Origin: a bacterium 210820-DFI.6.37
GTDB taxonomy: Bacteria; Bacillota; Clostridia; Peptostreptococcales; Anaerovoracaceae
Reading direction: 5' to 3'
Length of the DNA stretch: 64,000 nucleotides
Assembly (NCBI GenBank): GCA_020558355.1
Contig: JAJCKG010000007.1
Location: 1-64,000, forward strand
Each line of letters opens with the position of its first letter. Positions within the stretch are counted from its first letter, which is position 1. A model generated the notes under the pieces. The model was not told the DNA's origin, ran no database searches, and saw only the letters and a list, made by a program, of their open reading frames with translations. The translations under genes were made by a program, and so were the position numbers. Of the stretch, positions 12,100-31,286 are shown one piece after another.

Positions 12100-12230
12100 T
12101 TGGTACGCATAAATGAAAAGCCCTGATCTGTCAGACAAACCAAGGCCAATATACGCTTCATTTATATTGTACCTCGGCGGGATGATTAAGCTCGTACCTC
12201 GATAGTCGCCCCCGCTGTCTACGGTTATTA
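12100..12230 (-). ncRNA. L10 leader (ribosomal protein autoregulatory RNA) with attenuator
   Basis: The 180-base gap between rplA and rplJ contains, on the minus strand, the conserved L10-leader core: AACCGTAGACAGCGGGGGCG, then CCCGCCGAGGTACAATAT. It is followed by a hairpin (12120-12127 with 12139-12146) and TTTTCATTT, the arrangement of an attenuator. In Firmicutes this element senses excess L10(L12)4 and reduces rplJL expression. The assignment rests on the conserved core and position; a covariance-model search would confirm it. Confidence 0.85.
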
Positions 12231-12250
12231 TTCGCGATTAAATTCAAGTC

Positions 12251-24548: not shown

Positions 24549-26105
24549 TTATTTTGTCAAATCAGGGAAGGTTTCATCAAAGGTCTTTTCGTGCTCGCCA
24601 AGAGCGTTGATATCTCTGATTTTTCCTCTTGATTTCGCGATTTTATATCCGATCATCGGCAGAATAACCGCCGCGCACGCCACGCTGAAGATTACGATTC
24701 CGCCGCCGGCGTTTCCTTCCGGATCGATAATATCGCCAAAGGCCAGCATAACCAGACACGCAAGCTGCGCAATCATGGCAAACCACGGAATCCACGCCAT
24801 ACCCGGCTTTACTCTCGCCTGCAGGATAGAATCCGCGTCATAGCCCCGCTTTTTCAGCTTGCTTCTGAACCGCTTCTGAGAAGCGATAATTCCTACCCAG
24901 GCCAGCGTTCCCGTAAAGCCTGAGAGCGACAGCAGCGTCCCGTACAGACTCGCGAAAAGTCCGGTCAGCTCGGAAATGAGACCCAGAATCAGCACAACCC
25001 ACATAAACGCCAGTGTAAAGAATACCGCGTTTCTCGGATTTCCCTGCTTATTTACCTTTGACAGGAATTTCGGAGCCAGTCCTTCAACAGACAGGCCATA
25101 CATACATCTTACTGTTCCATAAAAACCGGTATTCGCGCAGCTGAAGGCCGCTACTAAAACAATCGCGAGGAATACGATGGCAAAGGCGTCAAAGCCGTAA
25201 GCCTTCATAATATCGGAAAATACCGGTGTTTCATCGGTTGCCAGCGCAGTCGGGAATACCAGCAGAACCAGCAGAATCGGCACCAGATACAGCCCTACGA
25301 TACGGTAAGTAACGCTCTTGCAGGCTCTTGGTACGGATTCATCCGGATTCTGAGATTCCGCCGCTGCCAGACCAACAATTTCTGTGCCCTGGAAGGTAAC
25401 CAGAACAACCACCATAAGAACCAGACAAATGGCAAAGCCATTCGGGAAGAGATCGCTGTATAAGCTGCCGCTTCCAAAGTTGATTCCCACGCCTTTGAAT
25501 CCGTCTTCAACCGCGCCTAAAACCGCGCTGTCAGGGGTGCCCCAAAGGCCTACCCAGATACCAAAGGATACTAAAATAAACAGAATAATAACAATTACTT
25601 TTGTAATAGCAAGACCGGATTCGATCTTCGCGAAGATATCTACCGCGCAGAGATTGATCAGGGTCAGAGCCGCCAGCGCTCCAATCGCGAAGGCCACATA
25701 GGCCACGCCGCTGCGAACTCCGGTCAGCTCCTGCAGAACCAGAGCCACCGCGATTGCCTCCGACGGGCAATAGCATACCCAGTTGAACCAGAACGACCAT
25801 CCCATACCGGTGGATATAGTCGGCCCTAAAAATTCATTGGTATAAGCCACAAAGGATCCTTTTCTCGGTAAGTTAACAAGTAATTCCGCGTAAGCGATCA
25901 TAAGTCCGAAAACAATAACTCCAACAATAGCAAAAGCGATAAATACAGCCGGGCCCATAACCTGGATACACCAGCCTACGCCCAGAAAATAACAGGATCC
26001 GATTACACCGCCAAGTCCAATAAACGCGACCTGCCAGCCCTTGATTCCCCGTTTCAGTTCTTGCGTCTCTTCCGATGCCTGAACAACTTTTTTCTCTTCT
26101 GACAT
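24549..26105 (-). CDS. APC-family amino-acid permease (paralog A)
   Basis: Amino-acid permease of 518 residues with about 12 helices. The N-terminal signature GWQVAFIGLGGVIGSCYFLG is the substrate-binding helix 1 of the APC/AAT group, followed by AYAELLVNLPRKGSFVAYTNEFLGP. It is a close paralog of the permease at 26454-27956. They share most of their sequence, including the C-terminus GLGEHEKTFDETFPDLTK-like (here ALGEHEKTFDETFPDLTK). It has its own promoter, a structured leader and terminator. The likely substrate is an amino acid, possibly cationic or GABA-like, but this is inference. Confidence 0.9.
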   Translation of the reverse strand: MSEEKKVVQASEETQELKRGIKGWQVAFIGLGGVIGSCYFLGVGWCIQVMGPAVFIAFAIVGVIVFGLMIAYAELLVNLPRKGSFVAYTNEFLGPTISTGMGWSFWFNWVCYCPSEAIAVALVLQELTGVRSGVAYVAFAIGALAALTLINLCAVDIFAKIESGLAITKVIVIILFILVSFGIWVGLWGTPDSAVLGAVEDGFKGVGINFGSGSLYSDLFPNGFAICLVLMVVVLVTFQGTEIVGLAAAESQNPDESVPRACKSVTYRIVGLYLVPILLVLLVFPTALATDETPVFSDIMKAYGFDAFAIVFLAIVLVAAFSCANTGFYGTVRCMYGLSVEGLAPKFLSKVNKQGNPRNAVFFTLAFMWVVLILGLISELTGLFASLYGTLLSLSGFTGTLAWVGIIASQKRFRSKLKKRGYDADSILQARVKPGMAWIPWFAMIAQLACLVMLAFGDIIDPEGNAGGGIVIFSVACAAVILPMIGYKIAKSRGKIRDINALGEHEKTFDETFPDLTK

Positions 26106-26108
26106 GTT

Positions 26109-26211
26109 TGCCTCCTTCTCACATATTCCATCAATATGATTAGATTTATCTCAATTATGAAAACCGCTGGTTCAAGGGGTAAAAGCAGCTCGAATTTTCA
26201 GTTAATTGAGA
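26109..26211 (-). ncRNA. Structured 5' leader of permease A (candidate cis-regulatory RNA)
   Basis: The leader begins at the predicted +1 with a 9-bp stem (26203-26211 with 26149-26157). It continues into 6 more pairs (26195-26200 with 26158-26163) and an inner 5-bp stem (26184-26188 with 26164-26168). The inner loop contains ACCCCTTGAACC. A second hairpin, CATATT/AATATG (26133-26138 with 26122-26127), sits directly before TGAGAAGGAGGC, the ribosome-binding site. The leader of permease B has the same architecture with different paired bases. No known riboswitch class was recognised. Confidence 0.6.
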
Positions 26212-26218
26212 CTTTTTC

Positions 26219-26247
26219 ATTTTTTCATACTTCTTTTTCGATGTCAA
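26219..26247 (-). promoter_or_regulatory. Predicted promoter of permease A
   Basis: TTGACA (26242-26247) with a weak -10 AAAAAT (26219-26224), 17-base spacing. The same arrangement occurs before permease B. The predicted +1 coincides with the first base of the leader stem. Confidence 0.5.
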
Positions 26248-26384
26248 TATTTTTGAGAAAGTTCTTATTTTTGATTTTTAAAATTCTTGTAAACGAGACT
26301 TATAAAACGTCTTTTTTCTCCATTCTTATCCTTTTTTTCACCTTCTTTTCGTTGAAATTGCTCAATTTAGACTTTTAACTCAAT
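26248..26384. other. A/T-rich spacer upstream of permease A
   Basis: About 140 bases, part of the 348-base gap between the two paralogous permease genes. The remainder of that gap is the leader, promoter and terminator described separately. It is strongly pyrimidine/AT-rich and no other element is apparent. Confidence 0.5.
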
Positions 26385-26421
26385 AAAAACTGGACCGTTT
26401 TTAAAAAACGGTCCAGTTTTT
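26385..26421 (-). terminator. Terminator of permease B
   Basis: Long perfect inverted repeat (26385-26402 with 26403-26421) of the form A5-CTGGACCG-T5, about 30 bases after the stop codon at 26454. It is A/T flanked on both sides. Confidence 0.93.
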
Positions 26422-26453
26422 CTCCCCTTGTATTTTTATTGTTATAATCTGCT

Positions 26454-27956
26454 TTACTTAGTTAAATCCGGGAAAGTCTCATCAAAGGTTTTCTCATCAT
26501 TACCAAGCGCGTTGATATCGCGGCAGTGTCCAGTCTTCACTGTAATCTGGCGAACGATCATCGGTACAAAGATAGCCGCGCATGCCAGAATGAAGATCGG
26601 CAGCTGTCCTTCGCCAAACGCCAGCATTACCAGACAGATAACCTGAGCGATCATGGAGAACCATGGAACCCACGCCTGTCCTTTGCTTACTCTTGCTCTC
26701 AGACAAGTCTCCGGATCATATCCTCTCTTCTTCAGACGTTTTCTGAAGATGATCTGGGAACCGATGATGCCTACCCAAGCCAGAGTACCTGTAAATCCGG
26801 ACATGGACAGCAAGCTTTCATACAGGCTGGCCAGCGCGCCAGTCAGCTGTGAAACCAGACCAACGATCAGTACGACCCACATGAACGCCAGTGTAAAGAG
26901 TACCGCGTTCTTCGGATTTCCCTGCTTGTTTACATTGCCCAGGAACTTCGGAGCAAGACCTTCGATGGACAGACCATACATAGCTCTTACTGTTCCGTAG
27001 AAACCTGTGTTGGCACAGCTGAACGCCGCAATCAGTACAACCGCGCTCATAACCAGAGCAATTCCGTTCAAATCATACAGTTTCAACGCGTCGGAGAATA
27101 CCGGTGTCGCGTCGGAGCCAAGCGCGTACGGGAAGATCAGTACCAGCAGCAGGATCGGTACTAAGTACAGTCCTACGATACGATATGTAACGCTCTTGCA
27201 CGCTTTTGGAACAGATTCGTCCGGATTTTCCGCTTCCGCGGCGGACAGTCCAACGATTTCGGTTCCCTGGAAAGTAACCAGTACAACTACCATGGAAGTG
27301 ATAACGATGCCTGTTCCGTTCGGGAATAACTGCGCCGCGAATCCTGTATCTCCACCGAAGTTTACGGAAGCGCCCAGGAATCCGTCGCTGCCCCACAGGC
27401 CAACCCAAACGCCGAAGGCCGCGATGATAAACAGGATGATAACGCACACTTTTGTAATAGCAAGGCCGGATTCGATCTTCGCGAAGATATCAACCGCGCA
27501 AAGATTGATAATGGTCAGTGCCAGCAGCGCTCCTACCGCAAAAGCAACATAGGCCGTTTTGCTGTTCGCGCCGGTCAGGGACTGAAGCACTGTCGCTACA
27601 GCAATCGCCTCTGACGGACAATAGCATACCCAGTTGAACCAGAAAGCCCATCCAAATCCTGTGGATATGGTTGGCCCAAGGAACTCGCTGGTGTAAGCGA
27701 CAAAGGATCCTTTTCTAGGTAAGTTGACCAGTAATTCCGCATAAGAAATCATAAGTCCATAAACAATAACGCCAACTACACCAAATGCAAGGAATACGGC
27801 AGGTCCCATATCACTGATACAGATACCAAGTCCCAGGAAGTAACAAGAACCGATTACGCCGCCAAGTCCGATAAACGCGACCTGCCAGCCTTTAATCCCT
27901 CGTTTTAGCTCCTGGCTTTCGCCTTGCGTCTCTACTACATTTTTTTCTTCTGACAT
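26454..27956 (-). CDS. APC-family amino-acid permease (paralog B)
   Basis: Amino-acid permease of 500 residues with about 12 helices, closely similar to paralog A along its full length. It has the same helix-1 motif GLGGVIGSCYFLG, the same LPRKGSFVAYT segment and the same C-terminal EKTFDETFPDLTK. Differences cluster in the loop around residues 195-215 and in the middle helices, which could change substrate preference. The gene is not cotranscribed with paralog A, as a terminator, promoter and leader separate them. The pair arose by duplication together with the upstream control region. Confidence 0.9.
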   Translation of the reverse strand: MSEEKNVVETQGESQELKRGIKGWQVAFIGLGGVIGSCYFLGLGICISDMGPAVFLAFGVVGVIVYGLMISYAELLVNLPRKGSFVAYTSEFLGPTISTGFGWAFWFNWVCYCPSEAIAVATVLQSLTGANSKTAYVAFAVGALLALTIINLCAVDIFAKIESGLAITKVCVIILFIIAAFGVWVGLWGSDGFLGASVNFGGDTGFAAQLFPNGTGIVITSMVVVLVTFQGTEIVGLSAAEAENPDESVPKACKSVTYRIVGLYLVPILLLVLIFPYALGSDATPVFSDALKLYDLNGIALVMSAVVLIAAFSCANTGFYGTVRAMYGLSIEGLAPKFLGNVNKQGNPKNAVLFTLAFMWVVLIVGLVSQLTGALASLYESLLSMSGFTGTLAWVGIIGSQIIFRKRLKKRGYDPETCLRARVSKGQAWVPWFSMIAQVICLVMLAFGEGQLPIFILACAAIFVPMIVRQITVKTGHCRDINALGNDEKTFDETFPDLTK

Positions 27957-27959
27957 TTT

Positions 27960-28068
27960 TGCCTCCTTCTCACATATCTAAAATATGATTAGACTTGTCC
28001 ATCATTCAGCAGGCAACGCCTTTCCAAGGGTCAAAAGGCAATTCTAAATTTTCTGTTTTCTAATGGAC
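27960..28068 (-). ncRNA. Structured 5' leader of permease B (candidate cis-regulatory RNA)
   Basis: It starts at the predicted +1 with an 8-bp stem (28061-28068 with 27997-28004, one G-U pair). An inner perfect 6-bp stem GCCTTT/AAAGGC (28034-28039 with 28018-28023) has loop TGACCCTTGG. A hairpin CATAT/ATATG (27983-27987 with 27973-27977) then sits just before the shared ATATGTGAGAAGGAGGCAAA ribosome-binding region. Stem positions match those of the leader of permease A although the paired bases differ. Confidence 0.6.
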
Positions 28069-28074
28069 ACTCTT

Positions 28075-28103
28075 ATTCTTTCACATTTAAAATAAAATGT
28101 CAA
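28075..28103 (-). promoter_or_regulatory. Predicted promoter of permease B
   Basis: TTGACA (28098-28103) and AAGAAT (28075-28080) with 17-base spacing. As for permease A, the predicted start of transcription coincides with the first base of the leader stem. Confidence 0.5.
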
Positions 28104-28178
28104 CATTTTCGAGATTTTTCTTATTTTTGATTTTTTTAATTCTTATTGTTGCAAATTTCTACACAATTCCGCATTTTG

Positions 28179-28448
28179 TTACAAATTAAAAAAGAGAAGA
28201 AGACAAACTGCCCCAGGCAGTCCAAGCACGCCTGTAATCGCGGCGGTCAGGATATTAAAAGGCACAAAGATTCCCCAGCTTCCGCCGATCAGATTGACAA
28301 GAAGGATCAACGCGCCGCCTATCAGACTGCTCAATACCAGCTTTCCCGCCCATTTCAGCGGAACTAGCAAAAATCTCCCCATCAGATAAATCAAAAAAAG
28401 TCCTGCTGCGTAAGCAATAAAAATACCCGCTTCCAAACCAAAGCTCAT
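28179..28448 (-). CDS. bofA: Sigma-K factor-processing regulatory protein BofA family
   Basis: Small membrane protein of 89 residues with two or three hydrophobic segments and the BofA-family C-terminal pattern LVNLIGGSWGIFVPFNILTAAITGVLGLPG (key residues N, G, PFN, TA, GxLGxPG). In sporulating Bacilli BofA holds the SpoIVFB protease inactive until the pro-sigma-K checkpoint; here the role is by family. It follows recR, as in Firmicutes generally, after a terminator. A strong GGGGAGGGG site precedes the ATG. Confidence 0.87.
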   Translation of the reverse strand: MSFGLEAGIFIAYAAGLFLIYLMGRFLLVPLKWAGKLVLSSLIGGALILLVNLIGGSWGIFVPFNILTAAITGVLGLPGAVCLLLFFNL

Positions 28449-28562: not shown

Positions 28563-29162
28563 TTACAATTCTCTGCGCCCCTCCACAGCTTTCAGGAGCG
28601 TCACCTCATCCGCGTATTCCAGATCGCCGCCTACAGGGATTCCGTGGGCGATCCTCGAAACCCGAATACCGGAAGGCTTTATAAGCCGCGCGATATACAT
28701 GGCGGTGGCTTCCCCTTCAATATTGGGATTCGTGGCCAGAATCACTTCCTTCACGTCCTCCTGCTGCAGCCGCACGATCAGCTGCTTTAAATTGATATCC
28801 TCCGGGCCAATTCCTTCCATGGGCGAAATAGCGCCGTGCAGGACATGATACAGACCGCTGTACTCCCGGATTCGCTCCATGGCGACTACATCCTTGGGTG
28901 ATTCCACAACACAAATCACGCTCCGGTCCCTGGACGGATCCGAGCAAATCGCGCAGGGATCCATATCGGTCAGATTCCCGCAGACAGAGCAGTATTTCAT
29001 GTTCTCCTTGGCGTCTATAATCGCGTCCGCCAGAGAGCGGGCTTCCCCCTCCTTCATAGAGAGTATGTGAAAGGCCAGCCGCTGCGCCGTTTTTCCCCCG
29101 ATTCCCGGAAGTCTGGAAAGCTCATTAATAAGCTTTCCCAGCGGTTTCGCATAATACTTCAT
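28563..29162 (-). CDS. recR: Recombination protein RecR
   Basis: RecFOR-pathway DNA repair protein that helps load RecA at gaps. The 199 residues show the helix-hairpin-helix [17 protein letters not shown], the four-cysteine zinc finger [18 protein letters not shown] and a Toprim domain starting [15 protein letters not shown]. It begins 4 bases after ybaB, as is typical for dnaX-ybaB-recR. Confidence 0.97.
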
Positions 29163-31120: not shown

Positions 31121-31286
31121 AAAAAAAACAAATTGCCCTTTGAGAGCTCCGCAAGGCGCTAGCAAAGGCTGATCTGCGGCACATAAGAGCTTCCGCTTAT
31201 TGCTGCTTCCTTCCGGACCTGACAAGGTTCACAGAGTCTTATTGCGCAGGACCCAAACCATACCAGACGGAGCTTTCAAAGGGCAA
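31121..31286 (-). ncRNA. ffs: Signal recognition particle RNA (small bacterial type)
   Basis: On the minus strand the conserved SRP domain IV is intact (GTCAGGTCCGGAAGGAAGCA followed by GC, with the facing strand). The ends TTGCCCTTTGA and TCAAAGGGCAA pair to close a long helix (31276-31286 with 31133-31143). A T-rich tail (TTTGTTTTTTTT, 31121-31132) follows, serving as terminator. The RNA body is about 154 bases, an extended 4.5S-like form without a clear Alu domain. Binding partner is Ffh, and FtsY (the receptor) is encoded at 52733-53629. Confidence 0.95.

Follow-up and report, generated by a model that had tools for sequence, protein, structure and literature searches.

The two amino-acid permease genes considered here are each preceded by a leader that is probably an undescribed control element, in which a stem, P1, runs from the predicted +1 and is followed by a short linker and a small hairpin, P2, that abuts the Shine-Dalgarno (SD) sequence. 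The leaders lie on the minus strand of a stretch of 64,000 nucleotides from a Clostridia genome, the whole of which was analysed and is called the window. P1 is established as selected RNA structure in leaders with a TTGACA-type promoter, the type found in the window. P2 is, judged by its sequence conservation, the conserved core of the leader, and selection on RNA structure is supported for its outer stem. A lineage-specific, two-part structured translational leader of a permease gene and its neighbouring duplicate, acting at P2, is the explanation that we favour, and we give it about an even chance of being right.

Permease A (24549..26105, minus strand, 518 aa) and permease B (26454..27956, minus strand, 500 aa) both match AA_permease (PF00324) and are paralogs with 72% identity. 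Neither reaches an NCBIfam cut-off; the solved chain nearest to permease B by sequence is the lysine-specific permease 9eyd_A (E 3e-44). Upstream of permease B lie bofA (28179-28448) and recR (28563-29162), and at locus L086 a BofA-like protein and a recR-like frame (the latter by inspection) stand in the same order before the permease. Between permease B and leader A lies a strong, A/T-flanked hairpin (26384-26422, minus strand) that also attracted chance matches to microRNA families and is probably the terminator of permease B. Elsewhere on the minus strand of the window, Rfam models recognise a ribosomal protein L10 leader (12105-12242) and a small SRP RNA (31159-31258).

Leader A, which precedes permease A, spans 26111-26213 from P1 to the SD (minus strand, as are all leader features below). 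The 5' arm of its P1, GTCTCAATTA (26203..26212), sits at the predicted +1 and forms 10 pairs, one of them G-U, with the 3' arm TAATTGAGAT (26148..26157). An inner hairpin GCTG/CAGC (26166..26189) encloses CCCTTG (26178-26173), and the P2 core CTAATCATATT...AATATGTGAGA with the SD AGGAGG (26111-26116) occupies 26111..26143 (54.1 bits); within P2, CATATT pairs with AATATG (26138-26122), after which comes TGAGAAGGAGGC. Leader B, before permease B, spans 27962-28069 from P1 to the SD. Its P1 consists of the 5' arm GTCCATTA (28061..28068), likewise at the predicted +1, and the 3' arm TGATGGAC (27997..28004), joined by 8 pairs including one G-U, and is accompanied by an inner hairpin GCCTTT/AAAGGC (28018..28039) around CCCTTG (28030-28025). 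The P2 core CTAATCATAT...ATATGTGAGA with the SD AGGAGG (27962-27967) lies at 27962..27992 (55.2 bits) and contains the pairing CATAT/ATATG (27987-27973). A first-pass annotation of this DNA had described the same order of elements in both leaders, and all the strings that it quoted are present on the minus strand; its outer stem of 8 pairs in B is confirmed, whereas the 9 bp that it gave for A become the 10 pairs above. The promoters likewise share the geometry that it had reported, TTGACA followed after 17 nt by AAAAAT (A) or AAGAAT (B): the -35 boxes lie at 26242..26247 and 28098..28103 and the -10 boxes at 26219..26224 and 28075..28080, the latter matching the consensus weakly, and the starts are predicted ones.

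When leaders A and B were folded alongside 200 dinucleotide shuffles each, the region of P1 and part of P2 was equalled by 0 shuffles for A (z -3.96) and by 5 for B (z -2.59), and the whole leaders to the start codon by 10 (z -1.81) and 1 (z -2.61), respectively. Two copies of the string ATATGTGAGAAGGAGGCAAA are present where 0.03 would be expected, which by itself says little since A and B are paralogs; it is the 18 relatives' leaders described below that supply independent evidence. Inspection of these two leaders found no U-run after P1, as had been claimed, or after P2, and no intrinsic terminator between leader structure and gene. The absence of a U-run makes control of translation or of stability likelier than termination; the first-pass annotation had named translation.

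Relatives were collected by scanning genome contigs with the A/B alignment, which yielded 42 permease loci whose upstream regions were inspected. A covariance model, R1, was built from 16 P2 sequences, themselves chosen by pattern. Over the window and the 42 loci, R1 returned 14 full matches (at least 41.8 bits), two in the window and 12 in 11 loci, with L001 carrying two; next below came a degenerate copy in L004 (18.7 bits) and then scores of 13.0 bits or less. A full match is absent from 31 of the 42 loci, among which L024 and L038 have almost no upstream sequence, and P2 is therefore dispensable in the wider permease family. Nine of these P2-less loci (L016, L017, L020, L025, L028, L033, L037, L040 and L042) share another leader stretch, CGCTATTAT...AGCTTTTAGGAGG, which by inspection of the upstream regions precedes the same permease family.

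In wider searches, the exact P2 pattern was found in 9 of 393 genomes of the order, and a backwards-pattern control gave 0 matches in every order genome listed. R1 gave 11 matches of at least 41.8 bits in 10 of the 393 order genomes (12 further genomes reached at most 25.4 bits), a strong match in one of 391 genomes of the class (G001, which belongs to the same family; four further genomes reached at most 26.9 bits) and 18 matches of at least 38.7 bits in 16 of 349 genomes of the family, the filters being, in every search of more than 40 genomes, strict enough to miss weak matches. The family list contains all ten order genomes with a strong match. We regarded the 16 weak matches from order and class, none above 26.9 bits, as chance; five of them (L055-L058 and L069) were inspected as raw sequence. 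All 18 family matches directly precede a permease of this family, in one case on a contig that ends after 15 codons, and the two matches in G777 may represent one gene split over two contigs. Many covarying pairs in distant genomes, which the first-pass annotation had named as support, are thus not seen: P2 was found in 16 of 349 genomes of one family, and the class contributes G001 as its only strong match. The 18 family matches, L021 and the two window leaders made 21 sequences, from which L087 was dropped as its upstream sequence is missing; the compared set thus holds 20 leaders, two from the window and 18 from relatives, with L052 and L083 nearly identical. The permeases behind 19 of the 20 were compared with permease B and are 45-100% identical to it.

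Permeases as little as 45% identical are still preceded by the P2 core CUAAYCAUA/UAUGUGAG, whose DNA forms CTAAYCATA and TATGTGAG are common to all 20 leaders, Y being C only in L002. This constancy is partly built in, because the collecting pattern required core bases; the evidence for a real constancy is the gap in the R1 scores, which is empty from 18.7 or 26.9 up to 38.7 bits. Among the 16 sequences, the four inner pairs and the CU/AG pairs are invariant and hence silent on covariation, a further shortfall against the many covarying pairs expected, and at one pair beyond these both partners differ in three. The core halves lie 4-16 nt apart, and the loop ends keep pairing while their length and sequence vary: the 17 distinct loops form 28 extra pairs compared with 8.9 in shuffled loops, and none of 20000 shuffles did as well. 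The first-pass annotation had noted from A and B that the second hairpin varies and stays paired, which the outer P2 stem of the relatives corroborates. In contrast, the CCCTTG loop that it had placed in the shared core is absent from 15 of the 20 leaders; it occurs in A, B, both L001 copies and L012, and also in L018, which is without the P2 sequence, and so it does not belong to the shared core. Pairing of CCCTTG with the SD was considered and set aside, inspection finding only four pairs (CCUU/AAGG). The bases of the internal loop of P2 did not seem to fit the K-turn, the UAA/GAN motif or the 11-nt tetraloop receptor.

P1 differs from P2 in that its interior varies widely in sequence and length among the leaders. 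The stem sits at the start predicted from the -10 boxes in the TTGACA-type leaders and is separated from P2 by a linker of 3-6 nt, while the distance from the end of the -10 box to P2 ranges from 48 to 84 nt, and is 155 nt in L034. When 12 whole leaders were aligned with MAFFT, the P1 5' arms came out in the wrong place, and the stem was therefore tested by arm swapping: the -10 box fixed the position of the 5' region and P2 that of the 3' region, and own partners were compared with permuted ones. Own-partner duplexes sum to -140.4 kcal/mol against a permuted mean of -80.9 kcal/mol, with 0 of 20000 permutations as good (14 leaders); without the leaders that carry a TCTGAAA arm, 2 of 40320 permutations were as good (8 leaders). 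Both sets include L036, in which TTGACA lies 178 nt upstream and is probably a chance match; this leader was left out of the shuffle test because no promoter was placed. Against dinucleotide shuffles, P1 of the 13 TTGACA-type leaders reached a Fisher p of 7.7e-15, a value to which related and thus not fully independent leaders contribute, and taken singly L002 (0.19) and L021 (0.31) were not significant. In the six sigma54-like leaders together, P1 was not significant against shuffles (Fisher p 0.18) and is not established there, which again falls short of the covariation anticipated. The central claim of the first-pass annotation, that pairing kept despite base changes reflects selected RNA structure, is upheld by P1 of the TTGACA-type relatives and by the outer stem of P2, and it is these two parts that provide the covariation-backed structured core looked for in a new riboswitch class.

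The promoters upstream of these leaders are of two types, TTGACA in 13 leaders and TGGCAY-N5-TTGAA in six (L052, L053 and L083-L086), none having been placed in L036. The second type resembles the sigma54 consensus. A sigma54 gene scored above the cut-off in 8 of 10 genomes checked; among these ten it was not found in G777 and was found only below the cut-off in G778, both of which have sigma54-like leaders, and this weighs against sigma54 as the interpretation, barring gaps in the two assemblies. P2 is kept under both promoter types, which favours a role at the RNA level. Upstream of the -35 boxes of the window lies an imperfect dyad (26254-26267 and 28110-28123, minus strand) that looks like a candidate regulator site; three of the 20 upstream regions, those of L012, L021 and the second L001 copy, have it in perfect form (TGAGAAATTTCTCA), and degenerate forms are seen by inspection in other TTGACA-type leaders.

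Transcription of these genes may involve CodY, for which PMC5314169 gives the box consensus AATTTTCWGAAAATT. Leader A carries a CodY-like box, AATTAACTGAAAATT, with two mismatches (26193..26207, minus strand), that overlaps the P1 5' arm. Across the 20 upstream regions (up to 230 nt), 29 boxes with at most three mismatches were counted against 2.7 in shuffles (maximum 7 in 200), and 18 of the 20 regions, leader A included, hold at least one; leader B and the second L001 copy have none at this threshold. Several boxes overlap the P1 5' arm as (G/A)TCTGAAAATT, and in leaders such as L002, L013 and L035 a CodY half-site is itself the P1 5' arm. A CodY gene was found in all 14 related genomes searched, so that a box near the promoter together with a CodY gene, as expected of a CodY regulon member, occurs among the relatives and not for permease B. 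The leaders resemble CodY-controlled promoters, as described in PMC5314169, in that boxes like AATTTTCWGAAAATT lie at the start site and near it, but CodY accounts for neither P2 nor the co-changing arms of P1. The doubling of the P1 5' arm as a CodY box in several relatives, a role at the DNA level, was not foreseen by the first-pass annotation, nor was the competing register of P2 described next.

P2 can be drawn in two registers, both of which are possible according to folding predictions. Register 2 pairs TCATAT with ATGTGA and is, by computed energy, the more favourable of the two in 17 of 20 leaders, and the predicted probability of register-1 pairing is low in most leaders. In 12 of 20 leaders, register 2 would also allow a lower helix between CU and the first AG of the SD; as the register-2 stem is broken in L002, this SD-pairing part accompanies an intact stem in 11 of 20, and it is missing in 8 of 20. 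Predicted accessibility of the SD ranges from 0.06 to 0.85 among leaders (with 40 nt after the SD included), and folding of whole leaders gave no consistent OFF state for the SD. In 20 of 20 leaders the P2 3' strand contains, just upstream of the SD, the string ATGTGA, in which a stop codon directly adjoins a start codon; a functional AUG-UGA frame is unlikely because no SD is seen before it.

The leaders were also compared with known RNA families. A search of the whole window with Rfam 15 gave two matches above the gathering cut-off, neither within the leaders and none to a T-box; six sub-threshold matches in 25900-28300 (E<=5) also fall outside them, and 10 related loci gave no match. No Rfam family thus matches the leaders, in agreement with the earlier impression that they resemble no known riboswitch. 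A literature search of titles and abstract openings, with supplements, preprints and most subscription papers lying outside it, returned no description of the element, and the main text of PMC8040213 mentions neither permease, amino acid transport, Anaerovora nor APC. The claim of novelty rests on this absence from Rfam and from the search results. Among the nearest described parallels are two candidate riboswitches of amino-acid transporter genes, the livJ and trpB motifs, which, like the present leaders, are structured 5' leaders (PMC11109978). According to that paper, the SD of livJ is predicted in a bulge of its P1, and trpB has at least two hairpins, the second terminator-like with a U-run, in contrast to the leaders studied here; both motifs are tied to ABC-transporter genes rather than an APC permease, and trpB has more than 900 representatives in Firmicutes and Fusobacteria compared with one family here (PMC11109978). 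It is by these descriptions that the present set is told apart from livJ and trpB.

For the favoured explanation, a translational leader acting at P2, the following sequence of events is proposed. P1 would close the 5' end of the mRNA from about its first base and, after the linker of 3-6 nt, P2 would hold the nearly fixed CUAAYCAUA/UAUGUGAG against the SD. P2 could then serve as the control point for ribosome loading, either because a protein or small molecule recognises it or because it shifts between its two registers, of which register 1 would leave the SD free and register 2 would pair its first two or three bases. P1 would present P2 and protect the 5' end, and transcription is probably set separately, through the CodY boxes and the promoter. 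Every strong P2 match found is associated with this permease family. The widely varying interior of P1 is unlike a metabolite aptamer and counts against this explanation. So do the lack of significance of P1 in the sigma54-like leaders and in L002 and L021 taken singly, the absence of the SD-pairing part of register 2 from 8 of 20 leaders, the broken register-2 stem of L002, the inconsistent predicted accessibility of the SD, the low register-1 pairing probability and the permease loci that lack a full P2 match.

The main rival, which we consider distinctly less probable though still a serious contender, is by analogy an aprE-type leader that stabilises the mRNA and offers the ribosome a stand-by site while sensing nothing: the 5'-terminal stem would block decay that depends on the 5' end, and the small hairpin would keep the SD region open. 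The aprE leader combines a stem-loop at the 5' end with a strong ribosome binding site, as these leaders are predicted to do, and P1 behaves as such a stem should, starting at the predicted +1 and tolerating many sequences and interior lengths provided that pairing is kept. L018, although without the P2 sequence, still has, by inspection, GTCCAC/GTGGAC. However, sixteen fixed P2 bases, some of them unpaired in either register, exceed what a generic hairpin needs, and the 3-6 nt linker between P1 and P2 suggests one architecture. We know of no invariant SD-adjacent hairpin in the aprE leader, whereas P2 is the most conserved part here. Work on the B. subtilis leader as a 5' stem-loop stabiliser is cited in PMC3997798.

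Two readings that ascribe more to P2 are both doubtful, and to a like degree. In the first, P2 would be a minimal register-shift switch, a single hairpin with two frames two bases apart, of which one frees the SD and the other pairs CU with the first AG of the SD, the frame being chosen by a factor or by stacking of P1. Nearly every P2 base would then be fixed because it has to serve both frames; in the eight leaders with a more distant SD, only the slip of the hairpin would remain. In the second, the leader would respond to an amino acid or a related signal, either as a small riboswitch acting on translation or as a protein-binding RNA, and P1, linker and P2 would form its binding domain. Fixed bases beside the SD, the link to an amino-acid permease only, the lysine-specific nearest solved relative of permease B and the occurrence of the element before each of the tandem copies and with two types of promoter all fit such a receptor. 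Against it, few bases are conserved and a single short hairpin holds them all, the interior of P1 lacks conservation, and the element was found in one family and before one type of gene, whereas a riboswitch class commonly regulates several genes of its pathway. That the repeats are DNA operators for CodY and another regulator, with the RNA folds as by-products, is very improbable in spite of the enriched boxes, the overlap of several of them with the P1 5' arm and the CodY gene in all 14 genomes searched, for P1 pairing persists without the TCTGAAA arms, P2 is no CodY box and has halves too variably spaced for a dimer operator, and leader B carries no box with up to three mismatches.

Taken together, these results define an RNA element, open to experimental test, that belongs to an amino-acid permease gene of a Clostridia family on which little work has been done, apparently the Anaerovoracaceae. 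If a binder were found, the element would represent a new regulator class, and if the register shift proved real, it would be among the simplest RNA switches. If it acts only as a stabiliser, it would still be a modest but clear example of leader evolution.
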